Source of the DNA: Astrocystis sublimbata
Lineage: Eukaryota; Ascomycota; Sordariomycetes; Xylariales; Xylariaceae
Assembly (NCBI GenBank): GCA_022453515.1
Contig: JAJNNY010000024.1
Location: forward strand, 372,001 to 436,000
Reading direction: 5' to 3'
Length of the DNA: 64,000 nt
Shown: positions 21,562-48,669 of the stretch, piece by piece
Layout: every line of letters starts with the position of its first letter
Numbering within the stretch: the stretch's first letter is position 1
The notes under the pieces: model-generated
What the model was told of the DNA's origin: nothing
The model's database searches: none
What the model saw: the letters and a program-made list of their open reading frames with translations, nothing else
Position numbers and translations under genes: made by a program

Positions 21562-23932
21562 ATGGACGACTACTTATTCGACTCCAACGTTAGAGACTGT
21601 AGGGTCGTTCTGGAGAAAACCCACTACATAGAAATATTCAACTACTCGGTACGTACATTAACAGGCGAGGCGAGACAGGCCGGGTGCCCTCTGCCGCGAG
21701 CCAAGCAGATTTGCATTGGCGACGACGCCTCCTCGGCCTCTTGGGTTCTGACTGCCGGTCGCCAAGGCCCGTTGCGAACGATGCTGACGATGCTGCTCAG
21801 GACCCGGAGCTCAACACCAGCGAGGACCACTTGTTGACATCTGATGAGTTCGAAAATTTCCTGGAACGTCGCGTAAGCATCCTTCCTGATGTTCCTGCTA
21901 TGTCGAGCCTCCACCATGTACCTAGGTAATCTCTGCATTGCGAGACTGCCACTTAGTCGGAGACCGTCGCATGCCGGAGCTTTCATGACTCCAACCCAGG
22001 ACGCTCTGCCCCGAACGAGGCTCTGATGGATGCCACTGACAGTGCAATCACACAGGGAGCATTTGCGCCGCCAACACTCAAGAATGGTGTTCGATTGCTG
22101 GATGGGATGCGCCTCGTGTAAAGGAACCCCCCTAATACACCACCTAACTTCTATCACTAACACACGGCAAGGGTGCAACGGGACGCCGATCACAAGGATA
22201 CCTTTACTACAAACTTCATCTCCTTAACCCATCAACAATACACGTCCATGGTCAGAACATTCCATTTGCCTTTCCGCGCAATTGAGGGCAGTAGCCTTGT
22301 GGGGCCTGCATTCTGGTGCGAATATGACCAGGACGAGGACGACCGCCATCTGCGTACGTGAACCAAAGTCCATTTCAGGAAATGTGTCTAATTGTTACAC
22401 AGAGTTCATTTTTCGGAAATCCGACGTGCGAAAAAAGGGCAAGACCCGCGGCTGGGAAATCATGTTGTCGTACTCGTTCAACACGGGTATCACGACCGGC
22501 TTTGTGAAAGGCACCCAGTCTTCCGATATCAATGAAGCACTCAAACACTTGATGACATGCTCCGGTGAAGTCGGACACCCAATGCTTCTTCCAAGTATGC
22601 AACTCTTGGAGTCGTTTATTCCCCCTTCTGGCAGGTCTCGGGAGCATAAATTGCCCTAACTGGCATCTTTACTCCCGAGACACCTGCGAACACACTGCTT
22701 CATGAGCAATTCTTTTACTGTGAAAGGCAATTACTGACTCCAGCGGTTGCAGTGATCATCCTCTCGCACGACCTCTCGGCGAAGGTCGACATTAGACAAC
22801 GAGAGGCACGAGATTGGTTGAGACGCCTCGAGAATGCCATCACCCTACGCAAAGAGATAGACGAGAAGGAGGAGTATACGGACTTCGACGTCGACGGAAT
22901 CAACCGAGACCTTGTCGAGTGTCATTCGCAAGTTTTGTGGAAACGCCCGCAAGCCTATCAAGAGATCATCAAGGAGATGAAGGAAGGCATGATCAAGTTC
23001 AAGGCGTGTGTGCACGAAGAGAAGAACACCAAGAAAATGAAAGCTTCACATAGTAGTATGGGGTCCAGGTTGGAATTCTACCGCGTGAAATTGACGGGTC
23101 AAGAACATTACATCCACACAACGCTGGAAAGGTTACACATTCAGCGCCAAGCCGTATGTCAACACATGTTTGCTCGTCGCAAGCTGGATGCTGACGTTTG
23201 ATAATCCAGTTGTACAACATTATAACACAGAAGGAGTCGAAGCTCAATCTCGAAATGGCAGCGCAACAGCGACGGTTAGCGCACGCAAGCAAGCGCGACA
23301 GTACGGCCATGAAGACGTTGTCCCTCCTCGGAGCGATCTTCCTTCCAGGCACTTTCCTGTCCTCAGTCTTTAGCATGACGTTCTTTAACTTCAGAGTTCG
23401 TAAGTCGGTTTCCTTGCTCAACCGTTGTCCCCTTTCTTGAGAGCTTCAAGTCAATTGAAATGTACTCACGTGCTCACCACAAACTATCCTCACATTAGCC
23501 GACAACAGCGAGGTTTCTCAGGAGCTGTGGATCTATTTCGCCATTACGATCCCCCTAACCGTAGCGATCGTGGGGGCATGGTGGGCATTGGACCGTATCC
23601 GCGAGAAAAGCTATGCGGTTGAGGACTTCGACATCGAGCAGGGTATTGAGCGCATGGAAAATGAGATTCTCGCGATCATGCGCAAGAAAACAATGAACAA
23701 GGCGAGGTATGTATCAAAGCCTGTGGTGCCGGATACTTCAGTCCCATTGCCATTGTGTCGCTTGATCTAGCACTTTCAACCATATCCAGGTTGGGACTCT
23801 CGACTGACATGTTTTTATGCACGCAGCACTTGGGGCTCCGGTAACAAGAGCCCTACGCTGACCCTGTCGACAAAAACACATCATCATCATCATCATAACC
23901 CGTTCCACACCCACGAGAAGAAGTACAGCTAG
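21562..23932 (+). CDS. CorA-like two-TM membrane protein
   Basis: Fungal CorA-superfamily (Mg2+ transporter-like) protein. Supported exons: 21957-22117, 22172-22353, 22403-22594, 22753-23153, 23210-23399, 23499-23706, 23827-23932, all in phase. Conserved stretches include FHLPFRAIEG, FIFRKSDVRKKGKTRGWEIM and VECHSQVLWKRPQAYQEI. Two C-terminal helices follow: one ending SVFSMTFFNF, the other around IYFAITIPLTVAIVGAWWAL. The GMN signature of true CorA channels is absent, so transport is unproven. The 5' end is uncertain: exons 21562-21648 and 21801-21872 give a 532-residue protein, but a 56-nt intron (21745-21800) would instead keep 32 more codons. The intron 22595-22752 is an introner-like element. 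The tail has a five-His run. Confidence 0.8.
22595..22752 (+). mobile_element. introner-like element, copy A
   Basis: A 158-nt spliced intron of the CorA-like gene, starting gtatgcaactc and ending cggttgcag. It splits the codon before IILSHDLSAK. Its arms at 22631-22644 (gcaggtctcgggag) and 22672-22687 (ctcccgagacacctgc) can pair into a stem. It can be aligned by eye over nearly its full length with copy B at 46815-46973. Confidence 0.8.
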
Positions 23933-24889
23933 GCCGAGGCTAGTATCATTGAGAGGAGGAAGTTATAATACCGGTTGATGCCACCTAAAAAGATTGTGAG
24001 CAGCTTTGCGATGGCTGTTGTGGTATGAATGTTCGCATGGCTTATGACTTACGCACGTATACCTTGGAAGTTAGTTACACCCAAGGATGAAGAACGAACG
24101 AACGAACGAACGAACGACATGACGATGAACTATACGACTTTATGACCTTTGTATGACGTTTCATAGATTGCAAAATATCGAAAGGAAATGATTCAGGCGT
24201 GTGCATCGTACTGTTAACAACGATGCATTTGTCTTACATAAGTACACCTCATAACAAGACGCTACGTGTTGCCCGATTTGCCTTCGATAGACAGGCGTAG
24301 CCCAGTTATATTACCAAGTACGATGTCTGGCGCGATTGGGACATGAAACATCGCCAAATCAAGACAGTGGACATGAAATTTGTTTGTGCCAAAGTCTTAT
24401 GCCGATTCTGGTGTCGCGCAGAGCCCCAAGAAATCCCCGGAAACCGCTGGGTGCCCTTAGGTTCGTATCGAAGATTGGCTTGTTCACGACTTTCGCCATG
24501 ACTTGAATCAACATGCGCATGTCCACCTTGAAATGCAAGACTTGAGAAATAAGCATTTCAATTCGACACCAAACATCGTTTCTTACTGTTCCGTGTTTCC
24601 AGGTAGCATCGTGGTATCAGCGCTCTACGGTTCGAAATCGATCCACCTTCAAACCTGGCTTTAACTAGTCGAGCAAAACAAACAGATCTCTCTCCCGTCC
24701 ACTATTAATGTTATCAGTCAAACATGGCGGAAGCTGGGTGCGCTATAACGATGCTATTGGTTCAATATGATTGAGAACGATAAGTGATTCTCAGATTCAT
24801 AGTAGCCGCCCTGTCTAGCAGCGGTCTCTCTAAGGCAATCCGGAGCATTTGAGACGGGTTGCGTCTATCGGGTATCAACATTAAACCTC
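23933..24889. other. intergenic, 0.96 kb
   Basis: Convergent region between the CorA-like gene and the PLP lyase. It holds a GAAC tetranucleotide repeat (24092-24115) and nothing else recognisable. Confidence 0.6.
24092..24115. repeat. (GAAC)6 microsatellite
   Basis: Six perfect GAAC units in the 3' flank of the CorA-like gene. Confidence 0.9.
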
Positions 24890-26743
<1,854 letters not shown>

Positions 26744-27783
26744 CGTGAGGTGGCTTGGGCTTGGTCTGAGCGGGATCTTCTACAATTGTTGGAGCACTGC
26801 AAGCCTGATTTGATTTGATTGATGAAGAAGAACTGGTGCTCTAGAGATTATCACACACAGAGAGGTAATTATTGAATTTCTCGACGTAGAGAGCACCCAG
26901 TCCGAGGTTAAATAGCTACTCCAGAGCATCTGCTTGCTGTACACATGTCCAGCTCGTCAGCCAATCCCGGCAGATGGCTGCTGTGATTCGATAACGAGAT
27001 ATCCTATCCTCCCCGCAACCCCGTTGCAATTGTTTGGTGTTGCCTCGCCGAATGATCTTGGATCGCTTGCGGTCTTACTGCGTTCAACCCCGTTGATGCT
27101 GCAATGCAACACCCACCAGCAAATCCCGAGAAGAAAGGCTCGGCATTGTCCCATCGTACCATTCCGGGGGGCCCACAAGAGGCAATGCGGCCATGCCAGA
27201 TGCGCCCAACTTTGCAGGGTCCCGCTCCCGTTTTGTCCATCACACAGTCCGTTGTTAGATGTAAAGGGAAATGATGCGCCCGCATATCGACTGGTCAGTG
27301 GTCAGTGGTCAGTGGTCAGTGGCCAGTGGCCAGTGGTCAGGACGGGTTGCGGTGAACACCGACCGTACCCTGGGTTCTGGGTTCGTCGGGAAAGAATGGC
27401 ACGTACGGGTATCGCCATGGAAGAGGGGTGGGTGGCTTTGGGGGCGTTTGAGGAGGTGGTTGTCGCCCGTGTCGCGTGACAAGGAACACTCCCATTCGAT
27501 ATCGCCGAACTCTGACGTGTTTCACAACATTTCCTGGGACGGCAAACAATATCTAAGGGAACCAATTGGACACTGAGTTCAGTCCAGGTGCTTTTCCCAC
27601 TGGATTAGGCAATGGGGCAAGACGTTTTCTCGACGCTTCTACTTCTTTGGCGAAAATAACTACCTATATCATCTATGCTGTTTACGTATTCCAGATATGC
27701 TCACTTAAGAATGGAGGATTACATGTCCGCTGTTCTTGCCCGTGTTTGATCCTGTTATCATGACCAGAACGGTAGCCGAGTTC
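26744..27783. other. intergenic, 1.04 kb
   Basis: Between the PLP lyase start and the nitrilase stop, both on the minus strand. Contains a 7-bp minisatellite at 27294-27340. No coding signal recognised. Confidence 0.55.
27294..27340. repeat. 7-bp minisatellite GTCAGTG, 6.7 copies
   Basis: Four perfect GTCAGTG units, two GCCAGTG variants and a partial unit in direct tandem. Confidence 0.9.
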
Positions 27784-29481
27784 CTAGTTCGTGAAGTCCA
27801 CACTTGTACCCGGCTTCGTGTTCACCGTCAAGGTGCTGCGTTGGCAGATTCATTAGTAACTGTTGGTGAAGCGTTGCGCGTGGTGTCGATGCTCAACTTA
27901 CAAGATATCTGGTCTAGAGTAACTTCCCACGGCATCAAAATCCAGCTGCTCCAATTGGGTCAACAGTAGTCAGTGAGTCTGCACAACCTTTTCGGGCCCT
28001 TTCGGGCCTACTAGTCGCGGCGCACGATTGGTCATCATCAGATAGCTTTCACTCACCCGGGATTCCGTAATTTCGGACATGGGTAGATCAGCATACACGA
28101 TGCTTTCTTCGTCCCACAATGGCTCGGTGATCCTTTCACCCAAGGGTCCAGCAACAAAAGAGCCGCCGTGGTTGACGACGTCGTCGGCCGTCCACTGCTC
28201 ACCGTCGGGTCTGCGATCGTGATGCTCGGGCGTGAAGGGAGGGTAGTCAGCCGGAAAGTCTGAAACTCGAGTATACGAGTTGACTGTGACCACGAAGCAG
28301 CGCCCTTCTTTAGCGATGTGCTGCATCGACGCCGTCCACGTTGCCAAGTCATCAGCAGTAGGGGCTACATAGATTCTGTGTATAGGTAACCATTAGCCGA
28401 TTATGATTCGTCCCATGTAGAGAAGGAATAATAAGCGAGCGAGGGGCGCATGGAATACTGACTCTACTCCTTGTTGGTATAACGCCATGCGCGCCGCAGG
28501 CATGTAGTTCTCCCAGCTGTTGGAGTGACGGCATCGTCAGCAAGGAATCCGGTGTCTCTTGTCGATATTGATCTGATCGTCAAGCGCTGTGCGTTCTGTC
28601 CTACACGCTCATTTTAAGAGTGTTTGCCATTACTCACCAGATCAGAGTCCCAATCTTGCCGATATCCGTCTGCACAACCTCAAGCCCGTCGCCGGCTCCT
28701 CTGCCCCATACGAGTCGCTCAGCTGCCGTGGGGATCAACTGTTACTAGTGTGTGAGCTCCTTGCTTCTTAAGCTCACCATCAAATCTGTCCTCTATCCTA
28801 GCTGTTGTTGTTGTTGTTGTTGTTGCGAACGAAGAGAGCAATGCGTACCTTCCTATGCTTCAGCAGGATTGCGCCATCCCTGCCGAATAGCAACGCAGTG
28901 CAATACAGCGTGCCGCCCTCCTTTTCGATGATACCGACTTCAATGTATGCTTTGTGTGTACGCGCTGTTTCAGCGATGAGATCTATTTCAGGGGACGGTA
29001 TGGCTACGGATGAGTCGTAGTACTTGCGATACCACTCCCGGCCTGCTCGCCCATCCAAGCGCACCAATTGTCAGTCGTCTCTGGTGCCTCTCGTTGTTAT
29101 GCATGGACTGGGTATGAAGATGGAGGGGCCGCACCACGTGGTTCTCGTGCTCCTACGGTGGCATCGAAAGCATAGCGCCAGGGGTATGCCGATAGAAATG
29201 CTTCACTATGTGAGTGTAAGTTAGTTAGCCCTTCCGTGCATATCTTTTCCACTTATTCTTTCCCTCTGTATCTCTCTGTCCTCTCCGATGGTAATTCCAT
29301 ATTCTCACTCTATACGGGTCATGATCTTCGATATTACTGACGGGAAAACGATCAGCTCGGCGCCGTGTTTTGCTGCTTCTGCAGCCAGTCTGGTCAGTTT
29401 TGTCAAGCTCTTCTCAAGATCGAAAGACACAGGAGCGGCCTGCACCGCAGCGATTTTGACGGTTTTTCCCGAAGACGTCAT
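27784..29481 (-). CDS. nitrilase
   Basis: Carbon-nitrogen hydrolase that converts a nitrile to acid and ammonia (or to amide). 323 residues from eight exons: 29481-29342, 29205-29138, 29042-28849, 28738-28638, 28516-28463, 28375-28057, 27945-27902, 27835-27784. The Glu-Lys-Cys triad is complete: Glu48 in [11 protein letters not shown], Lys134 in HRKLIPT, Cys168 in [18 protein letters not shown]; the last is the true nitrilase signature. IYVAPTAD and [12 protein letters not shown] follow as in the family. The acceptor of exon 3 has two in-phase options three bases apart (29042 or 29045). Intron 3 holds a (GTT)7 microsatellite. The substrate is unknown; length is shorter than usual cyanide hydratases. 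It lies head to tail with the upstream-lying PLP lyase. Confidence 0.88.
28804..28824. repeat. (GTT)7 microsatellite in nitrilase intron
   Basis: Seven perfect GTT units (CAA in the transcript) inside intron 3 of the nitrilase gene, near its 5' end. Confidence 0.9.
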
Positions 29482-32400
29482 GACCGTATGAGATCAAGTA
29501 CGACACCTAGATTGCCATATGATGAGTGGACGAGGCGTTTGTGTTTTCCTTCGTCCTTGTCGACTACAGAAAGTTAAATACCAGCAGAGCTAGGGTCGCA
29601 ACTACGCACCTCTCCGTGTTGGGAATAAATCCTCTAGACTTCTGCATGTACACTGACCGAGCTCCAAGTTCCTGCATATTGGACATCGAGCGTGGTTGCC
29701 ACCTACCGCATTGTGTCTCATCAAGTGGAATCGTTGAAGTCAACGTCTGCATCGAGCGATGGCATAGCATCAAACGAAAGCTGCATGCCTGACGAAAGAG
29801 AAGCAGCATCCTGGGGAGGTTCCGGTTTCCTGGGGAGCCAAGACGGCCTCGACGCAGCAGCCATCTTTCTCATTCGTTCCTTGGTGATGCTAGCGCCCGG
29901 CATGGCATCGAATATGGGACACATCGTATGGTATGATAGCCTAGCATAGTACGACCCAGATCCCGAGCACAGCAAGGGTTCATCAACAACAAATCCCGGC
30001 CCCACGGTCACACGCAGCATTACACGGGAGGTATGCATGAAGACGAGGAATTCAGATAACGCAGCGGTGCGGAAAAGAGCCACCCGAAGGCATGTCATTG
30101 GGCCACTTCAATGACTTCTTCCTGTATACCACACGCGCACACACGCACACGCGCACACACGCACACACGCACACACACACATACACACAACCGTCCCTTG
30201 GGGTATGTGGTATGCGCCATGACAGGCAGCACAGCAGCAGTTCGTATGGAATGGACGTCTGGCATGTCAGCTTTCCCGCTGTATGGACGATCTTTGGGCT
30301 CTGACCTGCCTATCGGTAAGTCCCGGTTATCTTGCTTGCTGACGCTTGTTGCTGTAGTATGCTGCGTGTTTCTCTGCACCCCAGCCTACGTGTTGGAACA
30401 GCCTGCAGTGATCGAACGGCCGTGCATAGAGATGTGATCATGGGATATGTGGTCCGGGTCTTTTAGTACGGATCTGAAACAGACACTATTAGCATGACGT
30501 TGTATTTCTACAACGCGTATATTACTGGGGTTGGAGGAAAGAGCTATTAGACGCAACGGGAGCACCTCGAGGAGAACGCCGCTCTCTCTAGCTGTATGGT
30601 CCATACGAGTCGGTGATCGGATTGAGTGAGGACACCGTACACGGAACCCTCGTACGTTGCGAGTCTTCCGGAGAAATCCATAGTCACTGTGGTGGCAGGG
30701 GTTCCGGTGTTTGTGTGCTGGTGGCGGCGCCCACCGCGATGAGTCGGGATTGAGCCGCAAGGCAGGCGTTCGGTCGTACGAAATGTTGTGAAGGGCAGAA
30801 CATGCACGGACTTTTGAATTGGGAACAGCCTCATCTGAGTCCACACCCGTGCTACATGGTGGGATCTCGGCGTATCCACCCACCCGGGTTTGCCAATGGC
30901 CAAGTCGAAAAATTCGTCGTTTGCTTGCTATGAAGCTCGAAATAAAATACAACTGTCGTTGCCAGACCAAGCTACTCCTCCATGGCATATGCTCTGCTCA
31001 CACCCGAGACACGATCTTCCGGTCTGAACACAGGAGACTACGAATTGATGCGATTGAAGGCCGTATTATGCTTGAAGCTGCTAGTGGAACATGTTGAGCG
31101 AGGAACAGTTCGGCGATTCCACGGAACGACCCCTTTTCACTCTTCAACCCGTGTTGCCTATGACTTCAGGGAGGTGATGATCTGCCGGTGGTCTGACTGC
31201 AGCAGACATTCTACGGCCTTTTCGTACAATGGTCATAGTCATAACTAATGCTGGGTGAATGAGACACCGGAGTGTCGGCATACGTGTTAGGGATACAGCA
31301 GGAACGGGAGTCATTAGCCAAACAACTCGGTGTATGTATTACGGCCTAGGCCACAGCGTTCCACCAACCCTACATTGGTGCGAGTGCAGGGCAGATGCCC
31401 AGGACAAGCGAACCACGCCGCATCACATTGGCGAGTTGGGATATCAGAGTGTCAGAGTCTAGAGACGCTTCCTTGCACATGCTACATTCTATCATGGACG
31501 TGTCGACCGGCCGAAACCTTGTGAATCTTACGATGTTTCTACATCGCTTGCCCTTCTCAGCCATAGGTTCATCAGCTTTGACGTATGTGCTCCACATGAT
31601 TTACCTAGGTCCTAGGCGTGCGGCTTGCCCAAGCATGGGCCAAGACAGGGAACGCTGTTCCAGAAATTATATAATTCTGTCTGCAAAGGCCGACGCCAGC
31701 GCATCATTTGCCGGGCACTCAGGGTGTCAAGCCTCGACGGCGGCCTCGACGATATTGATCGTGTCTCGGGATGTTCTCGGTGACGATGTCGCGGCGTTAC
31801 TGATGTTAGGCCAGTTTCTGTCCCTGGTGCATCCATGATGTCTCTCTGGTGCGCCTGGCTCGAGCGTAGTGTGTCGGGTATAAATTAATGTATTTGAGCA
31901 TTGGGTATACAGCCTGGAGAGGACCTAGTGGCACGGGGAGCGAGCCGAGGGGGGAGGGCCATGCCGGCTGACTCAGTCAGCAGTAGCAACAAAGTGAAAT
32001 TGTGCCGTTCCGGAGGGACTCGGCCAGAAGGAGGAAGGTCGGTAGGAGGGGCTGTAAGTGATAGCAGTAGCATTGTACACGATAGTGGATTTGGATTTAG
32101 ACTTGGATTTGGATTTGAGCGATTAAGTTTTCAAAGGCCAGTTGCAGAAATGGGCGGCTGGTTTCATCGGGCTCCGTCGCATTGCAGACGCCGCCGCTGT
32201 GCTAGATTATTCCGAAATGCAATATATAGTAAATCTATCGTGAGCGAGAGCGAGAGCGGCTTGCGGCTTGCGGCTTGCGGACGCAGCGCAGACGGTAGGT
32301 GAGTAAGGCAAGTAAAAGAGCAGGGCCGAGGCTACCTAGTAGTTGCACAGCACAATCCCAAGTCCCAATCGAATCGGACTGCATGATGCTTCAAGTTTCA

Positions 32401-32990
32401 AGTTGCTGCATGTGGTTGGTTGGTGCACTGCGTGTACCTACAGTAGTAGGGGCCTAGGGGCCTATGGGGCCAACTAGGTACATATGTAGGCCGATGGGCG
32501 GGATCTGGTTTCTTGTACTCGTATCATGTAAGGTAGGTAGGTACATGTAGGAAGTAGGTAGCCTGGAGGTGGGCACCATTCAAGATAATTTCCAGGCTCG
32601 TGGATGTGGATTGGGAATTAAGTGCAGGTGCGCTTGAGGTTGCTTAGCATTGATCCGCAGGAGCGGCCCCAGATCCGACGCCAGACTCCAGCCTGCCATT
32701 GCGTAATGCTACCCTGCCGCGCCGTGCCTCCCCCCCTCCCCCCCCCTACGCCTGCTTGCGGGCCTTGCCGCGAGACATCCCGAGCTCCGGTCGTGAACAA
32801 GAGGGGTCTCGCTCTCGTTCACCGGCGACTCCTTTATTATACATACTGTACATCTGTAATACTTCTAGACCCTTTTTATTTTTTTATTTTTTTATCCTTT
32901 TTGTTGAGAATAAATAACTCTTATTTTATTTACTTTTCCACTGTACAGGCATTATCCGTTGCCTACCTTATTTTCGTCATCTCAAGCAAC
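29482..32990. other. intergenic, 3.5 kb, between divergent nitrilase and aspartate kinase
   Basis: No recognisable gene. It contains a CA/CG microsatellite (30130-30189), a TAGGTAC motif patch (32,435-32,560), and some orphan frames. One is minus-strand 29721-30098, which ends in an acidic stretch (FDAMPSLDADVDFNDST); its upstream part has no ATG or splice support that I trust. The last 300 bp are C- and T-rich, like a promoter or leader. Confidence 0.5.
30130..30189. repeat. (CA)n microsatellite with CG interruptions
   Basis: About 60 bp of alternating purine-pyrimidine sequence (CACACG units). It could adopt Z-DNA in vitro; no function inferred. Confidence 0.9.
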
Positions 32991-35500: not shown

Positions 35501-36764
35501 ATGAATACTGCAAAAGAAGTGGCTCTGGTTGTCGGCGCATCTAGGGGTATCGGCAGACAAATTGCCATCGATCTAGCACTGGCCAAGGGTAGCTATCGAG
35601 GTAGAGGCGCACCCTATTAGATTTCGTGCCTTAGCTGACCAAAAGTCTACATACGTAGTTATCGTTGCAGCTAAGTCGATTAGCGACGCGTACGGGTGTT
35701 CAACCTTCCCGCCAGATCCTAACTCTCCGCAATCAACGATCAGCACCGTCGAGCGTGAAATCCGAGAGGCTGGCGGTGAGGCAGCTGCAATAGCTGTCGA
35801 CGTGCGTGACTTCGATGCTGTACAGCGTTGCGTGCAAGAGACTGTAGAGGTATCTCGAGATGTCCTCCATGCACAATCGCCACTAGACTGACTGCAGTCC
35901 CGGATGGGTAATTAGCTATACGGCCGCCTCGATGTGTTGATATATAACTCGGGGGCCATTTGGTGGGCGTCTGTTGAGGACACGCCAAGTAAGCAATTAC
36001 TTAACTTATCTGTCTCTTGTGGCTACAATCGGCCGGTGATGTATTGCGGGTGCCCAGATCATTTGAAACAGGGCGTTAGCTACCCAGATGTTCTTCGCTG
36101 ACACCAAATATTACACTGCAGTGAAGCGTTTCCAGCTGATGCAAAGGGTTAACCCGGAAGGGCTGTACGGTTTCGTACAGGCGTCTTTGCCGCATCTCAA
36201 GAAGCGAGGCAGTGGCCGGATCATAGTCGTCAGTCCTCCGATTTATAGCCGCTTCTTTAGGGGTAAGGTCAGCTACGCCATGGGTAAAATAAGTATGAGC
36301 GTTTTAACAAAAGGTCTCGCGATGGACTTCCAAAGGCAAGGTCTCACCAACATGGCCATTACAAGTATTTGGCCAGCTGCTGTAAGTAGTCCCCCCTTGA
36401 AATGATATGAACACTCCAAGAATATCGTCCTTAGACAAGCTACTAGGCAATCGAGTCTGGTGCCACACAGAAGATGACGCAGGCAAACCCAAAAGAAGCA
36501 GAAGGCCTACGCAAAGCAACGATATTTTCGGACGCAGTACTTGCAATGTTAAAGGCCCCTGCTGATACAATCAATGGGCGGCTGGAGCTTGATGAGGACT
36601 ATCTTCGGAACGATGCGGGTGTTACTGACTTTTCTAAATACTCTCTCATTCCAGGGACGTCACCGCGAAGAATAATGCCAGCTCAGCTTCCGAATCTGGC
36701 TGTGAAGGAGCAAGACGACGAAGGTCAAATATTGAATAGTGCGGATAATAGAGCTAAACTATGA
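35501..36764 (+). CDS. short-chain dehydrogenase/reductase, HSDL2-like
   Basis: NAD(P)-dependent SDR of 313 residues. Exons: 35501-35600, 35659-35849, 35916-35988, 36122-36381, 36447-36764. The Rossmann glycine motif GASRGIG is at 12-18, the adenine-side motif DVRD follows EAAAIAV, the NNAG motif is changed to NSGA, and the catalytic residues are Ser159 and YAMGK (Tyr173, Lys177). The segments TPMKRFQLMQRVN and ASLPHLKK resemble hydroxysteroid dehydrogenase-like protein 2 and its fungal relatives. The exon 1 donor has two phase-equal options; the one used here keeps the canonical spacing before VIVAAKS. An in-frame ATG 63 bases upstream (35438) is also possible. The substrate is unknown. Confidence 0.87.
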
Positions 36765-37018
36765 GATCCAATATACTTGATTTAAAACAATACCTAATCC
36801 TGCCCCAGGACCGTTAACACCTATTACTAGACAAACCTACATAATGACCAGAAACCGCAGTTTTCGAAATACATTCGAAGGATTGCGGACTTTTGTACAG
36901 CTACACTCCTGCTTGCCCCTTCCATGTATCATTCCATTCGTTAAATCAAATCGTACCCTCGTATCGTAGCGCCTTGAACGAGAGCTGTTCTTATAGACAC
37001 AAAGAGCAAAATGCAGTT

Positions 37019-37576
37019 TCAAGCTTCTGTAGGGGTATCTGCCGCCACCGAGCCTCCACCAGCGGCATTCCCGTCGCCAGCAGGGTCGCCGTCGCTGCCG
37101 ACCTCCCCTCCTACGTCTGAGCCTTGTGAAATCTTCGAGGTGCCAGACGCTCGCCTTCGGCGGCGATGGCGGCGGCTTTTGTGCGCGTGTTTCCGGAAGC
37201 GGATCGATCTTCGGTAGGCGTAGAGGAAGCCACCGGCGCATATCACGAAGGCAGTGACCAAAACACCTACGAGAACGCTCGTCAAGGTGTCGGGGTTGGT
37301 GTCCGCCGATCGCTTAGTTAGTGCGCCGCAACTAAGTGACGAGAGGGACGTCGTGGGAGACGATGGGGAAGTATCGGCGGATTCAGCGATGCATGCTGCT
37401 CTCAGGACCCATGTGAAGGGGTTGTGGTGGTGAAGCTTTTGTGTTTGTACTGTTTTGTTTGATGTATAGGTTGTCATATGTGGGATTGGATCTACTCGGC
37501 GCTGCTGCTCAGGCACGGCGAGCTCGCCCCGAGTGTCTGGGAAGACACTCCGTCTCTCGATGGTGGGCAAATACAT
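37019..37576 (-). CDS. small single-TM protein with basic tail, unknown
   Basis: Uninterrupted frame of 185 residues, or 152 if the ATG at 37477 is used. One transmembrane helix (LTSVLVGVLVTAFVICAGGF) is followed by an Arg/His/Lys-rich block (KHAHKSRRHRRRRR) and a Gly/Asp/Ala-rich disordered tail. The basic block suggests the tail is cytosolic. Similar layouts occur in many small fungal membrane proteins of unknown role. The composition is partly low-complexity, so the coding call is moderate. Confidence 0.55.
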   Translation of the reverse strand: MYLPTIERRSVFPDTRGELAVPEQQRRVDPIPHMTTYTSNKTVQTQKLHHHNPFTWVLRAACIAESADTSPSSPTTSLSSLSCGALTKRSADTNPDTLTSVLVGVLVTAFVICAGGFLYAYRRSIRFRKHAHKSRRHRRRRRASGTSKISQGSDVGGEVGSDGDPAGDGNAAGGGSVAADTPTEA

Positions 37577-39391
37577 TCAGATTCAGGCCAGGTTCTTGCT
37601 ATAGCCTGTAGGTATCCGGGGTCGCAGGTGGTGATTGGTTGGCGAAGAGTGATTCGATATGCTCTGAATGTCATCTAGGTAGCATGAAAATGAGCGCACC
37701 GTAACTAAAGGCGGGGAATACATATTGGAAAAAGAAGACAGTCAAAACACACAGAACTCGTTTGGGTGCATCTGGGCTTAAGAATTGCCATATCTACGTT
37801 GCAAGAATGCGCTCGCTGATCTTCCATCATGTGCCCGTCGTCGCAAACGCATGTCTTGATCACAGCGAAGCGACTCGATTCGGGATGCCGGGGTTTTCAG
37901 TCCGGGTAGTACAACATTCTGGGTCTCAGAACGAAGCTGGCAAATCGGGGACACAAGCGCGGAGTGATTGATAATATCATTTGTCCCCGTTCGCACACTT
38001 TCCCATCTAACATGGCCAACGAGCACGCCGCCGAACTGCACTGCAGGTGGGGGGTGGCCTCTGAGATAAGGCGCATGCATATAGTGAGATCTCCCTATTC
38101 GTCTCCGAGCCGCGCAGACATGACAAGCTGCAAATCGTGCATCTTTCCGCCTCACTTATTGGCTTTGGCCTGAAATAGTGGTGTACAACGGCGAAGGTGT
38201 GGAGTACGTTTACAGGACGTTGTTCAGATGGATCCGTGCTCTTGGGTGTCAAACTTCATTCAAGTTTACGTCACAGATGGTCGCGATACCTAATGCTTCT
38301 AAGTTCTAGCCAATATCTAGAAACCCCTTGGATCTTCTCATCAAGTCTCTTGTGTTGGCATCGGGCACCTATCACTGCTGTCAGTGTCACGGCTGGCTGA
38401 GCGAGACTCTGCCGCGTCTGACCCCAATGAGTGAGGACAGGTATAGTTAGGTGACGCCCTACCTAACTTGCGTGCCACCTTGGTTTCGAGTGTTGGTGCT
38501 TTATATTCCTAACTTTACCATTCGGCCGAGATTGAGTGTCGTAATGAACATTGGCTATCACAGTATGACCCCCACCGTACCTGATGTTGCTATTAAAGGC
38601 AACGTAACCACCCGTCATCGTTGAGATCAGCAGCTGTTGGCAGACAACGCATCGTGAGAGGACGCGCAGACTCGTACCAAGTCTGGCATGTGCGTTGCTT
38701 GACGACTGCCTGGTGCGCATTCACGCCTTTCCCTCCCCTCTCTAACTTCCTTAAATCAAAATCAGGAACTAAGCAGTGTGATTCGGGCGGGCATCGACAT
38801 ATGTAGGCGAGATGAAGTCGCCCGAGTCTCTCGGTCTGGTCATGAGTTGCTACCTTCACAGTTGTCATAATACCAAGTCGGTTTGAAGAAGCGCGCGTCT
38901 ATCTGGTACTCCCAAGGTCGTCAACTATTCGACATACAATGGACCTGCTAAGAGGCCCCTTGTCATGCTGATGATTGCAGCGTAATCTGGCTTTCCTAGT
39001 TGACATCTATCTCCGTGTGATGTGAGCTGCTGGCGGTTGGTACTTCCAACTAGAGGATCGTTTGGTGACCACCAAAAGTCATCCGCCATGTCTGAACGTG
39101 GAGATCAGGTGGTATTTCAATTAAGCAGCACTACTTAGGTAGTAAACCATTCTAACAGCCAGTCAACGGCGGTGCTCACCTGTTGTTGAGATAAGGGGTA
39201 ACAAAGCATAAGACCGAAAAGAGCAGTAAGCCGGTCTCCCAGCCCGCCAACTCCGACTTTCTTTATGCCCGCGTCGTGACCGCATGTAACAAAGACACTA
39301 GCAACTGGTGACGATCTTACTCAATAAAGTCTTCCCAGGGACTTGCCAAACACCACAATTTTCCCTGGGACAAGAAACTTTTGTAGAGGTG
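37577..39391. other. intergenic, 1.8 kb
   Basis: Divergent region before the TAP-like hydrolase. Only short frames without recognisable protein; no clear repeats. Confidence 0.5.
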
Positions 39392-41554
39392 ATGATGGGT
39401 AAGTCTTCACTGCCTGTTGTTGGTCGCGAAGTATCGCCAGCCACTGAGAGACGGCGGTGGGGGTTGAAACTCGCTGGAATCTTAGCTCTGGCGCTCATTC
39501 CCATCAATCTACGCTTCAATCTCGGCATCTTGCCTCACTACGCCCGTGCAGCAACATCGACGTATGGACAATTCCCTGACCCCCGTATGTATGGTGTATA
39601 AACTACTCTGACAGGTGTCTCCCCGAGTGCCGGGACACCTGCAAACCCCTGTTTCATGAGCAACTTCTTCACTAGCTATATAAAGGCAATTATTTACTGA
39701 CTCCAGCCGGTTGAAGTCGATTCCTTGCAGTTCATTCCCTGTACCAACACCACCATAGTCCCCGCGCTCGAAGATGCCGATCCAGCGAGGTCATGGGCGC
39801 GTCTCTTTGATCCCAACCCTGACAATTGGAGCTGGGGCCATCGTCGTGGGGATGGCGCTGCGCATCCTAATGACAAGTACTCCGGACGCGGCATCTACAT
39901 GTGCGGCTTTCTCGATGTTCCGCTCGATTACACGAACCAGTCTGAAACCCGCGTTGTGCGGCTCGCCGTCACCAAGTTCCAGGTATCAGGCCTTGCACGC
40001 TCAGACTCGCACTCGCGAGCCGATGATTACACAGATTCGCGCCCGGGAAGCAAGAGTAATAGAACAATCGTCATCGAGCCGGGCGGTCCTGGTGGAAGCG
40101 GCACTGCTTATGCGTGGCGGTTTGCCGAGAATGTGACGGAACGCTTAAGTGGCGGCCAGTTCGATGTCCTTGGCTGGGACCCTCGTGGCATAAATGCTTC
40201 GCGGCCCGCCGTTGCTTGCTATCCCTCCAGTGCTCCGCGCGAGAGATGGTCGCAGCTCGCAGGCCAATACCGAGAGGTCTCCACGTCTCCGGGGAGGCAG
40301 CTGGAGATTGCCGACTCCATGAACGAGGCGCTCTTTCGGGCTTGCTGGGAACGACATGGCGATTTTGGACGGTTTGTGAGCACCGCATTTGTCTCCCGTG
40401 ATCTCGAGGAAATCCGTAAAGCCTTACGAGAGGACGAGGTTACGGGCTATTTTGTCAGCTACGGCACCGGAATCGCTCAGACTTATGCTAATATCTTCCC
40501 GAACCGTGTCGGCCGCATGATACTTGACGGCACTGAGTTCGTCAAAGACCACAGATTGCTTGGTGGCTTTGGCTGGACGGCGCTTGACAATGTTACAGAT
40601 GCTTGGCACGACGGCTTCCTCGGGGAGTGTATCAAAGCTGGTCCAGAACATTGTGCGCTGGCGCAATCGAAGACGGGAGAGGTCGTTACGCTTGAAGCAC
40701 TAGAGAGCCGAATGAATACTCTGCTAAGATCGATCATCCGACGACCGATGCCAGCCTATCGGGAGTCAAGCGGGCCTTCGCTCATAACCTACTCTACTCT
40801 CGTCAAGGTCATTTACATGGCGCTCTATAACGTCGAGCTTTGGCCAAGCGTCGCGGAGATGCTGTATGATCTCGAACGCGGCAATTCGACGCTTGCCGCC
40901 AAGATGCTCGATACATGGGGTTGGGATCCTGCGTCGATGCGACCTCCCTCTTCCAACGTGGACGGGGATGAGCTTGGTGCTTTGGTAATCTGCAGTGATG
41001 CGTATGATGCTCCTCAGCCTGCCGACGGGCTCGATTGGTGGGAAGTCTTATGGGCTAATATGACTTCAACCTCATGGATTGCAGGGAACTCCCGGTTCTT
41101 TGACGTTTTCCCCTGTCGCCATTTCGCGACTCACTGGCCTGAGCCTGCTGAGGTGTATCGAGGAGATTTAAACAAGACCCTGAAAAATCCAGTCTTGTTG
41201 ATCGCAGAAACCTATGATCCGGCTACTCCATTGCGTAACGGAAAGCGACTCCTTCATGAGATGGGTGCGAACGCCCGGCTTATTGCTCATCACGCATACG
41301 GACACAGCTCGAGTGACAAGTCAGCATGCACCGATAAGATAGCCAAAAACTATATTCTGCATGGAAACTTACCTAGGGATCAAGAAACATCGTGCTATGC
41401 TGACCAGAGGCCCTACCGAGCCAATATTGTGGCCGCTGAGGGAGGCTTGAGGTTGGAGGCGGATCCCGCAGTTCAATGGAAGAATCAAGTTCAAGTGCCA
41501 GCATTCCCATACCTGGACAGCTATAATGAAGGTACGCGTCCAGATCTTGGATAA
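39392..41554 (+). CDS. membrane-anchored alpha/beta hydrolase with TAP-like C-terminus
   Basis: Serine hydrolase or peptidase related to fungal and Streptomyces tripeptidyl aminopeptidase-like proteins; 676 residues. Exons 39392-39584 and 39717-41554, separated by an introner-like intron. An N-terminal signal anchor (around the segment LKLAGILALALIPINL) places the enzyme outside the cytosol, and many Asn-X-Ser/Thr sites agree with this. The fold marks are the oxyanion loop EPGGPGGSG, LGWDPRG, and the nucleophile Ser (about 312) in GYFVSYGTGIA. The Asp in ETYDPATPLRNG and the His in HAYGHSSSD lie in the TAP-like C-terminal domain. The triad is complete. ATG 39392 is followed directly by another ATG; either could be used. 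The substrate is unknown. Confidence 0.88.
39585..39716 (+). mobile_element. introner-like element, copy D
   Basis: 132-nt intron of the TAP-like hydrolase. It shares its 3' half with copies A-C: a ctgtttcatgagcaa block, a tttactgactccagc branch region and the end ccggttgaag, as in copy C. An 8-bp perfect inverted repeat (39612-39619 and 39634-39641) replaces the longer stem of copies A and B. The phase of both exons requires exactly these ends. Confidence 0.72.
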
Positions 41555-43784
41555 ATATTTCAAAGTGCGCGCGAACTGCTTGGGTTAGAGTTAGAGTCTA
41601 TGCCATGAGATGCGGTTTGAACGTGATCACAGAACCGCTTGTGCCTGTTATCAATATTCGTACAATGATTATCCCACATGGTATTGGCCTCTGATGACTG
41701 ACTGCTAACTACCTTGAATTGGCCGCAGAGCTTCACAACAGTAGATATTAGAACCTGATATCAAGGCAATCCAAACCGTGGAGACTGTTACATAGCGGGT
41801 CTCCGTCATGAATGCTATTCTGGGACGTCAATCTAGCAAACAACAAGTAAACGGAAAGGGCGAATTGCGAGGCAAAACTCACAACAGACATTCGTTAACA
41901 AATTTCGTAGTTTAGAGTCCTTAGGCGCGGCAATCTAGGCTTACAGAATGTGTATGCAATTCTCAATTTGCGCAAGTCTGGTTTGGCTTCATTATATACC
42001 TGTTATGCTTTCTTGATCCAGTCGTAGTATTTGTAGCATCACTGCAGTGTACTACGTAAATTGTTAGATCGTGTCTTATCTTGTTATTGTTGAGAATCTG
42101 TAGCACAATGATGACATGTTTCATCAAACACGTAATATTGTGGGACACATTCTCACTTGCAACTAGTAGTGTACTAGCTGTATAAATATGGCATAAACGT
42201 TGACTCGGCAAGAAAGAAGGACATGACCAATATATTTCGAGTCAGCTCATCGATGTTTTTATTAGAGAAGGTTAGTGAACGTTATCCGACAGTGACTTTT
42301 TACAGTTTGGTGCTGACGTTACACTTTCACAAAACACTCGTGTCGCATTTCTCTCCAATAAGCCGCAATTGTGACACTTTCAATTTGATCAAAACCTGCT
42401 TCTGAAGGAGAACCTGACAGCATTATATCTGGGTGTCAAGACGACAAGATGTCAATACATGCTAATACATGCTGACAGGCGTGCTACCGCTGGTGATGCT
42501 GTGTGGGGTAAACTTCTTCAAACAATACCATGGTATCGAGTTGAGCAAGCAAGTTAAGACTCTTGAGGCGAGTTATACCTGTGATACTACAGTTGATCAC
42601 TAGGTAGCCTTGCTAATTCAACAGAGCCTGTTGGCTACCCCTCGCGGTGCGGAGTGCAGGGTTTGACAAAACCGAGATGGGTCTAATTACGTGTATAGTG
42701 CCACTCTGTCCATGGCATATTGACTCTTGAGACATATGGGGACTGAGATAAAGCTAAGCAAAAGGTACGTCACTCCTCAAGCATAGTGCGAAATAACCTC
42801 CCTACCTCTTCACATGCACCTAAGCCCACAATAAAGAATGAGAAGGAATGGGTTGTAAGGAATGTGTATATGGATTCGGGCTAGAAACCTCAATCTCCTA
42901 GTATCAGTGTCCACCAATACGTCCGAGCTGTATGTTAGGGAGGCCTTACCTTCGGGAAGATGAGGGACATTCATGTGACAAGTTCCCACGCTGTGTTTTT
43001 GAGCATATACCACAGGGCAGAAGGCGTTCTATTCATCATAAATAGAATACCGAAAGTTTCAAAACCACGCAAAGTGAGTCAACATTGCGGCAATAGTATC
43101 TCAAGGGGCGCAAAGCAAAGGCAACGAGAGTTAACGCTTCCAGGCGCCAAGATCTCATTATCGTGGCGCCTGCAGATACCCGTTTAAAGCAACAGCTGAC
43201 ACTTCGGACTTTTGTATCACCATTCACAAATATCAAGCGAGATGACAGAAGGATGAAGACAGCAAGGATAGAGGCTGGTCGACGCAGATGGTGTGCCAAG
43301 CCAACTGGATCAAATCTCATCGAGTAGGGACCTTTATGTTCCACTCTATGCTGTAAATCACTGGTCCGATACATGTTTTGTAAAGTTGTTGGTTGTTATG
43401 CTTTTTTTTTCGAATATCACTTGAGATTAACGGATACCAACATTGTCATGGATGCGGAAACTGTGTCTCGGCTATGACAGCGGTGGTTATCAAAGTTGAT
43501 CGAACACGAAGCCACCTGCACTAATCATGCAGGCTACGCCAACGAACTCGAGGTATTCTAAATTTAAACTTGGCTCGATCTGCCTCTGTAAGGTCTGAAG
43601 CCTTTCCATATGAGGATGCGGGCCATAGCTCTTGGGCCTCAGTTGGACCAACTGGGGTTTAATCCAATGCCTTGGGAGGCAAAATATCTTTAACTCGTGA
43701 ATCCTTCTCCTCCTTCTCTTTCGACTGTCACTAGTTGTGCTCTTTTCGCTCCCCGTCTACATCAGAACCTTCGATTTCTTCAGT
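41555..43784. other. intergenic, 2.2 kb, AT-rich
   Basis: No gene or repeat recognised. Base composition is more AT-rich than the flanking exons, with many stops in all frames. Confidence 0.5.
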
Positions 43785-44861
43785 ATGAGCTACGATCCGA
43801 TTAGCTACTTGGGCTTGTCTTGTAAGTCTGGTGGAGAATTTTACATTTGTCAGGACAGCAGTCTTGAGTTCATAGGGTGCTGTGATGTCGATCCGTGTAG
43901 TCGCGGCTGTGCATCGACCGACTTGCACCCCGCTAGCTTTAACACCGAGCATTACAGTGAAATTCAGCGTCAGAGCTGTGTCGGGACCTTGAACGCACTT
44001 TGGTACACCTGTACCGATGGACCGACCTTCTTAGGGTGTTGCGCAGCGAATCCATGTAATAATGGAGGTGTATGCCCTGGCCAGAACTTGGTGGGTGCGA
44101 GATTAGGCGATGACCCGAGCAGTGCATCGATTTTCCGGACTTCTTCAATTGCAACTACCGTGATCTCGGGGACTTCCTCAACTTCACAATCAACTCAAGA
44201 GGCGACCTATACTCCGTCATTCACTTCGGCGGATGAGAGCACTCCAATCCTAAGTCCAACCCCAACTTCCAATTCAACTATACCTTCAGACACCACCCCA
44301 AGTAAGGAAAGCTCGCCCGCGACTAATGTCGCCGCGATTGTTGGGGGCATCCTTGGCGCCCTAATCGTTCTCCTGTTGATTGCTTTCGCTTTCTATCGGT
44401 ATCGAAAGCGAAGAAGAATGGAGCTCGTAAAAGCACGACCTGAAGATGATGACTTGCAGCCTCCCTGGAGCCCATATCATGGTGAGATCGCGACTCCATC
44501 ATTACCAACCACTCAATACGCATACTAATACGCGATAGACTCATTTCGCTCTGGCACTCCGGCACCACCAGCTCCGGTTTCCCCCATTTCGACTACCTCC
44601 ACCCACCAAAGAAGCCTTTCCGCGTCTCTGAGTTCCATCATTGGATTCAAGCGCTGGAACACGCCGAAAAGAGAGAGCTTCCAGGCGACAACAGAATGGA
44701 TTTCGAATAGACGCAACAATGAGCCGGCAAGCCCGGGTCTTCTCAGCCCTACGGAGCTGGAAAGCTTACCAACAGGTGCGGTAATGGTTCGAGGGCCAAC
44801 GCGGAACACTATACACTACGAAATCGAAGCATCGATGGTACGTTCGGGTTTGGAGAAATAG
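43785..44861 (+). CDS. Cys-rich, single-TM surface protein, unknown
   Basis: Type I-like membrane protein of 339 residues. Exons 43785-44481 and 44539-44861. The N-terminal part has two repeats of the pattern C...FxGCC..xPC (EFIGCCDVDPC and TFLGCCAANPC), a fungal extracellular cysteine module. A Ser/Thr-rich stalk, one transmembrane helix (about 184-206) with a basic stop-transfer (RYRKRRR) and a Pro/Ser-rich cytosolic tail follow. An in-frame ATG-less extension exists upstream, so the start at 43785 is preferred. No cleavable signal peptide is obvious. Layout resembles wall sensors such as WSC/MID proteins, but the Cys pattern is different, so the role is open. Confidence 0.72.
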
Positions 44862-46663
44862 AAGGTCGGGATGTAATCACGGTTGATGTTGACATCGAAA
44901 GACAATGGGAAACACATCCCGTGACTCATATTATGCCACCGTCTCTAATTCAACGGCGCGTGATTGTTGCACTAGCTACCATTGCTATCACTCATTGTCA
45001 CATTGGATCTCGGGACGGTCCTTCAACCTTTAGAGGAGCTATGCAAGTATATAGTTACCAGACGCATGAAATTCACACACGTTATCGGACAGTTTGGCTC
45101 TCTGACACATATTCCAAATTCATATACGCAATATCTTACACTCAAACTCTTACATGAGTTTATTGATCAAGACCCCGACCTCCTAATAGGCAGGTCGATT
45201 CATCCATTCCCTAAGCCTACTCCTCAAGGTAAGATTCCCTGCTGACCCGGTGGCGCTTGCACTACTGGGACGTCGCTCCGGGTGATCAATCCGGTTTGAC
45301 ATATCACATTGACCAGACGAAGGGTGTCGCCCGGCACCGAATCGATTAGTTCGGCCTATCGGCGATGGGATTTGTTAAAAGATCAATGTGCAACAACGTC
45401 CGTATGTGTTTATGATAGTATCCACTGGGAAGTGATAGCAGATGATGATTCGGGAGTGCACTCACAGTAGAAGTCGCCACGGCCAGCGTCGTCAAGAACG
45501 GCTTGGTACTTCTCCTTGGCCAGTAGATATGCTTTCGACATGTTGCAGGAGCTTGAATCCCTTGTCTTCGTGTTGAATAAATGTGTTACTTGGTTTGACT
45601 TGTTTCGCAGCTCGTCCGCTCTCAATAGGTAGACTTCAATATTGAGCCTGACTGAGCTTAAGAATTCGATGAGACAAAGACGAGTCTCGGTCAAGTCAAT
45701 CGGGAAAGCACCCTATCTTCATATATGCAGATTTACCCCGGATTCCCATTAGTCAGAAGCCTGGGGTCATCAACTAACCCCTCATCAGAATGATATCAGT
45801 GCTCCAACCTTCGTCGGGATGATCGACGCTTAGGACAAGCTAGCAGCCAATGGGTGTTGAGGGTGGTAACATTCGAGAAGTAATTATACTCAAAAGCATA
45901 TTTCGCTTTGTGACGCCTGTTGGAATTAACATCTATTTTGATAGTGCTGTCTACCTTATCCCCGTAAACTTCGTCTTTTACTGTCTTCAGTATACTCCTT
46001 GTAGCCCACTAAATTCCCAGTCGACTATAAAAGATGAATGGTGGACTCCAATGGTTGACCAAGAGATAATAGCAGTTACTGAACCACAATGTGCGAAGGA
46101 TTTAATCATCATGTCCTGGTGTTCAATTTTATAGTCTCTGAGGCAAGATGCGATGCGAGAGCCTAGTTGGAGATTGCATGACTCATTTGCACCACCCGAG
46201 CCACCCAAGCCGAATCACCAAAAGTTGACCATGATCGCCATCTCGAAATCGTCAGTTGACATGTGTATCTACGTCACCTGCTTGGCAAGGTAAGCTGCCG
46301 ATCGTGCCTCTATTTTCTCTTCCGTGCTTGCAGAACACTCCATGACTCTCGAGCGTCGCAATGGTTAATGAAAACAAATGACAGTAAAGACCTCATATGA
46401 TCAAGGTCTTGGATTGCTCCCAAAGCTTTGTTAAGTTTGTGACCATGAATTGTCTTGCGGGTTAGAGCTTAGTGAGTTTGCTGCTCCGTTTCCGCTAGCA
46501 GGAAGTCTCACATCTCTCCTTGATTCTTTGTGTCTTCAAATCTTTTCTTTGTTGTCACCGTACTTGAACGTTCATAGACTCGTCCAAGCTGAGCCTTGAG
46601 CGGGATCTGAACGTTCAGATATTAAAACATAACAACGCACAGGACCTGCGATTATAATCCATC
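44862..46663. other. intergenic with one gene fragment
   Basis: 1.8 kb between the Cys-rich protein and the kinase-like gene. It contains only the minus-strand fragment at 45375-45712. Confidence 0.5.
45375..45712 (-). pseudogene. 3' fragment of an uncharacterised gene
   Basis: Two in-phase pieces, 45712-45466 and 45424-45375, joined by a very short 41-nt GT-AG intron, encode 98 residues ending in a stop. The sequence looks protein-like (LNIEVYLLRADELRN, LLAKEKYQAVLDDAGRGDFY), amphipathic and helical. A stop and an acceptor AG lie at the 5' edge, but no upstream exon or start was found. It may be the end of a gene whose 5' part has decayed. Family not recognised. Confidence 0.35.
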
Positions 46664-48669
46664 ATGTTTCAACCCCGAAGGCAAATGCCTCGAAGGTATC
46701 ACCCTTTTAGGCAAGTCATCCCCCAACGGCGAGCCTCTGGACAACGGGCTAGGTATATAGATCGTTACTTTAATGAGGAGCATGACTTCATGCCCGAGAA
46801 GTGTTTCGCTGGTGGTATGCAACTCCTGGAGTCATTTATCTCCCCTTCTGGCAAGTCTCGGGAGTAAAAGCTACCCTAAATGGTATCTGTACCCCCGAGA
46901 CAACTGCAAACCACTGTTTCATGAGAATCTATTTTACTGTAAAAGACAATTATTGACTCCAGCGGGCTTGTAGTTATTGTATACAAGCGGCAGAACGCCC
47001 AGAATGCCGTGGAGAGGATAGTGGTGAAGTACGCGGTAGAGCCGGGACAAAATGTTATGAGGATGGACCGGAGTAATGAGATCATTTCGGAAGAGAGGAT
47101 CCTTCGCCGACTCTGGGGCGCCGAACACGCGATTCGCCTTTTAGCTATTGTCGATAACAGACGCCATCGAAATTTGAGGTGGAACGAGCCTCTTAACAGA
47201 CCGCTTTTGGACTCATCTCGGTTTCTGCCATGGAAGTTGACGATCGACCGCAGAGATCCTACCTACTTTGGAACCTACTTCTTCGTAATGGAACATCTTG
47301 AACGGGGCGATGGGTATGTCATGACAAGCACTATCGCATAGCACGTTGTTTCCCAGTCAGATTGAGCTTTGGGGAGAGGGGCCACACCAGAGCTATCCGA
47401 AGCTTGGCGTAATTGAGATGCAGAAAAGCGACTAATCCTTGCTATGAAGTGACGATTTAATCAGAAGATGCGAGGCAAGGGGCATCACCGAGATATCAGA
47501 GCCTCTTCTCTGGTACTTCTTCCTGTGTCGTAAGGGTTTTTGAAAACCCCAGTATCACCAGGCAAAGTGTTAACCAGAGGATTAGTTGTGCGCGGTTGTG
47601 TCGCAATGGCTGTATGCATTCACTGAAGTCATTTATTCTCCTTCTGGCAAGTCTCGGAGGCAAAAAATACCTGAGCAGGCTCCTGAAACACCCACGAGAT
47701 CCCTCATTTTATAAGCAAACTATTTACTGCATAAGAGACAATCGCTGATTGCAGCCGGTTGAAGTGGCCGCCAAACGATCGTCAACGTATGAATCCGCCC
47801 GCGGTTACAAGAGAAGTGATACCAAATCCGTTGCGACCGCCGACTACGATAGTGCACGGAGACTTGCACCTAGGAAACATAATGTTTGGCGAGTATGACG
47901 CTGAAGATGCCACTCAGCCAAGCTGCCATCGAGGAGTTCCTGTTTGTAAGTTGGGGAATTGGCGCGTTCTACAATCTCGGCCAAATGGTCGCCCATGGCA
48001 TAGCTAACTACATGGCACGGGCACGACAGTGAAGGTTGGAACTCAATATGCACCCGTGAGGGCCCAGACTGAACGGTTTCTAGATAATCGATTTCGGCAT
48101 GACCGAAGAACAGCTGTACCCGTAAGTGGACATGGAAGCGTTGGAGAGGCCTTCATCGTGAGTGAAACCACTGACTCGGGGCCGGCAGTCCTTTACGAGC
48201 ACAGCGCGAACATCTCAGATATGTCGGCGACGTGAGTAAAGTATGTGCATCCTACAAAAAGCAATGAAGCTGACATGTAGATGAGCTAATGCAACAATTG
48301 GCGAATTTGGCTCCCATTGACTTGGCATATGGCTACGATGACGACCGTCCTAGGTTCATGGTCAGGGATATACCAACTCTAGGCCATTTTGAAACCTACC
48401 TGGACGAAGCGATGTATACGAATAGGCGTCGCTTCAGCGACGAGTTTCGCGGACTTCTTGCTTGGTGTTTAGCGGCGAGACCTGGAAGTAGACCTACGGT
48501 GAATCAGGCTCTTGACTTTTGCGAGCACTTTGCAGCGCAGACAGCGAACTGGAGGCATTTGGCAGAGGAAGTCAGCGAGATTTTTGATATAGTGCCTCTC
48601 GACATAGATGGTCATGTGTCGGGAAGTGAATATGAGCCGACATCGTCTGGCAGCAACGATGATTTATAG
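46664..48669 (+). CDS. divergent fungal protein-kinase-like gene, possibly broken
   Basis: Kinase-fold protein of a fungus-specific expanded group. Well supported exons: 46664-46814, 46974-47313, 47450-47529, 47580-47611, 47765 to about 47945. They give the ATP lysine (ERIVVKYAV), an acidic C-helix partner (SEERILRRL), a hinge (FFVMEHLERGDG) and the catalytic loop H-G-D-L-H-L-G-N with Asp and Asn kept. Two introns (46815-46973 and 47612-47764) are introner-like. After 47945 the model is uncertain. Reading through loses the DFG motif; an intron 47946-48029 keeps the frame but also gives no DFG. The C-lobe is plain again at 48289-48669 (LLAWCLAARPGSRPTV). A pseudokinase or a pseudogene are both possible. 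Confidence 0.6.
46815..46973 (+). mobile_element. introner-like element, copy B
   Basis: 159-nt intron of the kinase-like gene, gtatgcaactc to gggcttgtag. Close relative of copy A. It has the same stem arms (46851-46864 and 46892-46907), the ctgtttcatgag block and the attgactccagc branch region. Confidence 0.8.
47612..47764 (+). mobile_element. introner-like element, copy C
   Basis: 153-nt intron of the same kinase-like gene, beginning gtatgcattc and ending ccggttgaag. It shares with copy B the gaagtcatttatt and ccttctggcaagtctcgg blocks and a tttactg...agacaat 3' block. The stem is weaker than in A and B, so this copy looks older. Confidence 0.75.

Follow-up and report, generated by a model that had tools for sequence, protein, structure and literature searches.

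Where spliceosomal introns come from is an old open question, and the fungal introners are the cases with the least clear route. Here, this question is raised by four introns of Astrocystis sublimbata (Xylariaceae, Xylariales): are they copies of one multiplying intron, and by which route would such an intron spread? The four lie in the window, i.e., the whole stretch of 64,000 nucleotides that was analysed, which is part of a contig of 538,138 bases (C107). The genome searched comprises 42.6 Mb in 189 contigs. The original prediction had read the introns as an introner-like family within three unrelated genes.

All four introns (A, B, C and D) are present at the positions listed in Table 1, with lengths of 158, 132, 159 and 153 nt, respectively. 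Mutual alignment and covariance-model scores (Table 1) place them in one family, where the model behind these scores was built on 30 family members including A-D themselves. For copy B, the model match spans 39562-39706 and does not follow the splice-site borders, which were set by hand. In the family tree, A and C are found inside a young-type clade, B and D outside of it. Regarding the host genes, the names CorA-like and kinase-like derive from the original prediction's reading of the sequence only. The spliced frame of copy A is open for 813 nt over the junction. For gene B, the NCBI protein equals the translation of the two exons joined, i.e., the annotated protein removes exactly intron B.

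Table 1. Family copies in the window with their structural parts and host gene; positions refer to the window, scores to the covariance model.
Feature	Position	Strand	Context and basis
Introner copy A, young type	22595..22752	+	phase 1, putative CorA-like gene; alignment; model 185 bits; fold -58.7 kcal/mol, z -6.0
Near-terminal stem of copy A, 5' arm	22598..22614	+	predicted fold
Near-terminal stem of copy A, 3' arm	22735..22751	+	contains branch-point-like CTGAC; predicted fold; motif 11-17 nt from end in 74/74 copies
Internal hairpin of copy A	22635..22681	.	predicted fold; also antisense model match, positions 41-87
Introner copy B, older type, without part of 5' half	39585..39716	+	phase 1, alpha/beta hydrolase (TAP-like) gene; model 60 bits; protein P0001 is the spliced product
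Host gene of copy B	39392..41554	+	exons 39392-39584 and 39717-41554; translation identical to NCBI protein P0001, Astrocystis sublimbata
Introner copy C, young type	46815..46973	+	phase 1, putative kinase-like gene; model 169 bits; 17 terminal pairs in predicted fold
Introner copy D, older type	47612..47764	+	putative kinase-like gene of copy C, 638 nt downstream of C; model 109 bits; phase 0 before TGG codon

A covariance-model scan of the window revealed no further convincing family copy beyond A-D. The next full-length model match (55832-55983, minus strand, 16.5 bits, E=0.021) was judged to be due to chance. Apart from the family, the window shows a histidine run encoded by a CAT repeat at the end of the CorA-like gene's last reading frame (23880-23932) and a tRNA gene on the minus strand (59963-60036), the only hit of the window to Rfam when gathering thresholds are applied.

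The sequence blocks named in the original prediction do occur, but some had been assigned to the wrong copies. The donor gtatgca, claimed for A, B and C, is found in A, C and also D, while B reads gtatgta. The same distribution holds for ccttctggca with gtctcgg, also claimed for A, B and C, since the respective part of B is lost. ttcatgag had been attributed to A, B and D but is seen in A, B and C, and the gactccagc-type branch region, supposedly common to all, is absent from D. Finally, of the inverted repeats claimed for A, B and D, the one of A was confirmed (16 terminal pairs), while the terminal regions of B and D show 0 pairs; copy C, too, has a clear inverted-repeat fold. These mix-ups leave the conclusion untouched.

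Genome-wide, intron-only queries locate the family at no fewer than 136 distinct places. This number is a lower bound, compiled by hand from 143 places before overlaps were removed by eye, to which later searches with the 3' end add a few; it includes a few duplicated contigs or segments. That is, L051 and L052 on contig C11 have identical flanks, and L070/L071 (C77/C80) as well as C95:6001/C107:516616 are identical to each other, the copies being on small contigs or inverted, all of which may reflect duplication or assembly redundancy. The query with intron A alone provides 41 places, 30 of them aligned from the first to the last base, and the query with intron D 15 places. Four family patterns with up to three mismatches match 65, 28, 77 and 18 times, while their reversed versions yield 0 matches. 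The genome-wide search suggested along with the original prediction supports the introner-like reading, i.e., matches fall on GT-AG introns in coding sequence.

The places are unevenly spread. Contig C107 carries 15 of them compared to 1.7 expected by its length (538 kb) and is the richest among the contigs checked. Compared to about 1.3 expected, eight neighbouring pairs are less than 3 kb apart, and each of them shares one strand. Within about 3 kb of contig C124 (L045:1488-2524 and L036:1501-1790, ~809.7-812.9 kb), six family matches are crowded, some of which abut and some of which have degenerate ends.

To characterize the copies as introns, we ran the covariance model (30 copies) over 77 of 86 sources (333 kb), with 9 loci omitted as they are overlapped by others. 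From 116 model matches, 89 sense copies were kept, and 24 antisense self-matches as well as 3 fragments were dropped. An exact GT...AG at the model borders is found for 75 of the 89 copies. All counts on flanks are based on 74 copies, i.e., after removal of the 14 without GT-AG borders and of 1 duplicate. When spliced exactly, 61/89 copies are open for 180 nt; the respective controls provide 37-40 (acceptor shifted by 1 or 2 bases), 35 (antisense) and 5 (unspliced). The frame over the splice is longer in sense than in antisense for 66/75 copies, with no sense excess in the remaining 9. A branch-point-like motif is located 15-16 nt from the 3' end in 67/74 copies.

Pfam searches were run on 15 host genes. 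One domain runs through the junction in 5 of them, i.e., a permease (L053), a cutinase (L041), a GMC oxidoreductase (L047), a glutamine amidotransferase (L043) and an exchanger (L019), with a score that does not exceed the Pfam cut-off on one side in L047, L041 and L019. Paired domains on either side of the junction are seen in 3 genes (L002, L007, L016), and the remaining 7 show a domain on one side or none. A nested pair is found in L012:1016-1318 (minus strand). Here, an introner of 146 nt adjoins one of 157 nt without any intervening exon, and an open frame requires the removal of both. Overall, the family shows what introner-like elements are recognized by, i.e., near-identical introns at unrelated gene positions, borders that coincide with predicted splice sites and a stable predicted fold, and the placement of the copies read is coding and mostly in sense.

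How recently the family was copied can be seen from L002 and L003. Both elements are identical over 157 nt within unrelated genes, while their flanks have only 27/100 bases in common. Copying is therefore recent. The L002 copy has a predicted fold of -62.2 kcal/mol (z -7.0). In the predicted fold of young copies, a near-terminal stem of 16 bp links the donor and acceptor ends; the inverted repeat behind it starts at a distance of 3 nt (5' end) and 1 nt (3' end) from the termini. Within the outer helix, positions 4-20 pair with 140-156 such that GUA and G are left free at the ends. The element is nearly self-symmetric, i.e., full-length antisense model matches occur. In the middle of copy A (22653-22671, family consensus CCCTAACAGGTATCT), the sequence looks like an acceptor followed directly by a donor, as a past fusion of two introns would leave it.

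Eight or more terminal pairs are predicted in 54/74 copies. The median is 16 for the 26 copies near the consensus compared to 6 for the 23 far copies, where age is approximated by the distance from the young-type consensus and older-type copies are thereby scored as old. No stem covariation beyond that of shuffles was observed (86.3% vs. 86.1% paired). Given the loss of the stem in diverged copies and this lack of covariation, the stem seems to belong to the active element rather than being a structure that host genes maintain. The number of surviving stem pairs is slightly above the prediction from random mutation (mean 10.6 vs. 9.3, p=0.001), so some upkeep may exist.

We also studied the exon bases that border the copies, into which neither the covariance model nor the four search patterns extend. 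The first exon base downstream (+1) is T in 56 of the 74 distinct copies, followed by A (12), G (4) and C (2). For the 47 copies that end in pyrimidine-AG, T is found in 44 and is followed by G at +2 in 32. Among the 22 older-type copies ending in AAG, +1 is T in 11, A in 10 and C in 1, and the five copies ending in ATAG do not follow the rule (G 3, T 1, A 1). Within the young-type clade (support 0.71), 38/42 copies have T. Predicted ordinary introns show no such preference (n=52; G 19, T 15, C 10, A 8); these are motif predictions, the strictest 19 of which have T in 5. The difference is significant for both the pyrimidine-AG copies (44/47 vs. 15/52, Fisher p=1e-11) and all copies (56/74, p=2e-7). 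This is also reflected genome-wide, where the 3' end followed by T is found 73 times compared to 7 times for not-T at equal mismatch tolerance, with 2 matches for the reversed control of the latter pattern.

The signal is sharp and one-sided. The junction information is 1.70 bits at +1, 0.55 at +2, 0.16 at -1 and at most 0.26 elsewhere. T junctions are found in all three phases (A/TG, /TGG and NN/T, with the slash at the junction). The pyrimidine-AG copies are enriched for C at -2 (25/47) and A at -1 (21/47). A symmetric CA/TG target was rejected, as these two bases are unlinked to G at +2. Concerning target-site duplications (TSDs), identical flanks of 2 nt are present in 1/74 copies and of at least 4 nt in 0/74, and a duplication hidden inside the intron ends was dismissed given that +1 is G in 1/47 and -1 is G in 8/47 copies. 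The strongest locus-specific match between flanks relates left position -11 to base 8 of the right exon (z 4.3, the highest of 256 comparisons). Since it is off the borders and at a codon-multiple distance, we read it as coding composition. In the nested pair of L012, the better-preserved introner (151 vs. 74 bits) sits between the other's AG and the following TG, as the T rule predicts.

Whether the T was already there can be assessed from homologues. The split Met codon of L002 (6PGD-like) is Met in 111/120 and Leu in 9/120 homologues, and the Met at the first junction of L063 (agmatinase) corresponds to M, V, I, F or L in 112/120. The second copy in L063, an exception to the T rule with A at +1, interrupts a Lys codon, and 115/120 homologues have Lys at this position. 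None of the ten closest homologues per junction of L002 and L063 shows a gap there. Judging from these codons, the T-containing codon predates the intron at both T junctions tested (L002 and the first of L063). That the element itself brings in the T is rejected at these two junctions by the orthologue codons; gene B is the exception. Its split codon is Leu, while homologues have mostly D or N, i.e., the T at this junction is newer than the gene.

Which process could produce such a family? Gene or segment duplication that carries introns along, or plain chance, would fit a few pairs, i.e., those with identical flanks (L051/L052) or identical matches (C77/C80, C95/C107). The host genes are unrelated, however, the likeness ends at the splice sites, as for L002 and L003 with their dissimilar flanks, and reversed patterns yield no match, such that we consider this explanation negligible. 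For algal introners, a non-autonomous, MITE-like DNA transposon has been proposed, i.e., an element that includes both splice sites and is mobilised as DNA by a transposase. The inverted repeats near the ends and the almost self-symmetric sequence are compatible with such a transposon here, and fungal introners of other designs may differ. A transposon is at odds with the missing TSD, be it at the borders or hidden in the intron ends, with splice-site co-option not being seen, with a target signal at +1 rather than -1 (1.70 vs. 0.16 bits) and with the coding, mostly sense placement. Furthermore, no long element with these ends is found among the 36 matches of the 5' end: 36/36 lie at known places, and for 34/36 a 3' end or a match to the full model is no more than 200 nt away. 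As neither a TSD nor a longer relative among the 5'-end matches was found and the signal is one-sided, DNA transposition is ranked second and rated as unlikely.

The T rule on its own could also stem from a survival filter, i.e., copies insert at random, and those in front of a base other than T disappear through bad splicing. After all, only surviving copies can be observed, and with the stem ending a single base from the acceptor, splicing might depend on the base that follows. On the other hand, predicted ordinary introns do not need a T (15/52), and the older type accepts A besides T (10 and 11 of 22). Both observations favour a choice of T at insertion over later filtering, which leaves the filter as a minor but serious possibility.

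In our assessment, A-D are probably introner copies, that is, copies of a multiplying spliceosomal intron (about 157 nt) that spreads into new genes, is mobile as excised RNA and relies on host enzymes. Coding sense placement, precise ends, the lack of duplication and the fold of active copies make us favour an RNA intermediate, which we do not take as proven. The mobile form would be the excised intron RNA, shielded and closed by its terminal stem. It may be reinserted in sense into transcribed genes, either via reverse splicing into a transcript and subsequent copying to DNA or via its use in the repair of DNA breaks. The inserted copy would then be spliced out harmlessly and drift into an ordinary intron. 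The enzymes for this spread would be the host's own.

Introner-like elements of Dothideomycetes were reportedly presented by van der Burgt in 2012; the host class here is Sordariomycetes. According to passages of PMC4457414, these elements are likewise multiplying spliceosomal introns, collinear with genes, with a stable predicted fold, decay to ordinary introns and two copies in one gene; the terms 'insertion site', 'proto-splice' and 'target' are absent from these passages. DNA-moved introners of algae and other eukaryotes, as portrayed in parts of PMC9860276, share dispersed intron families and inverted repeats with the A. sublimbata family, which differs by the lack of TSDs and of splice-site co-option. 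In the same parts, Gozashti and colleagues describe ascomycete introners as outliers without TIRs or TSDs; the family studied here has no TSD either but does have near-terminal repeats.

Within the same fungal order, sister [D1,2] stwintrons and cropped sister introns form dispersed families in Hypoxylaceae and Xylariaceae (passages of PMC8469720 and PMC12403724). Following these passages, they resemble the A. sublimbata family in seamless insertion without TSD and in inverted repeats near both ends that can join the terminal Gs. For Xylariales stwintrons, Fekete and colleagues report near-terminal inverted repeats of 10 nt and no nucleotide bias in the bordering exons; they, too, suggest an RNA intermediate, with incorporation of the intron RNA at DNA breaks (passages of PMC12403724). 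The A. sublimbata family differs from what is given there by its stem of 16 bp, by a sequence other than their GUAUAAAAAC element and by its strong exon bias. A stwintron structure was rejected for the copies, since [D1,2] needs a G before the copy, which is seen in 8/47, and removal of a single GT-AG intron restores the frame. That is, the family is a canonical single intron, unlike the [D1,2] stwintrons. In the open-access literature, we found no paper recognisable as describing this Astrocystis sublimbata introner family. Introner-like elements themselves are already known; what we class as new is a canonical introner that has a stem at its ends and follows a target rule of one base.

Group II introns recognise the nucleotide that follows their point of insertion. 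By likeness, the intron RNA itself might pick its target by the first one or two exon bases, i.e., T (mostly TG) for the young type and T or A for the older type, which would amount to spliceosomal retrohoming with an intron-encoded rule. We put this forward as a long shot. If true, insertion before T would also hit existing donors between G1 and U2, and such insertion could explain the near-exclusive [D1,2] type among known stwintrons, where published stwintrons show no exon bias.

For the question of intron origin, the family offers large size, identical copies, a fold that is lost on divergence and a sharp one-base rule without target duplication. Any model of fungal intron gain must account for this one-base T rule, and the rule is testable experimentally.
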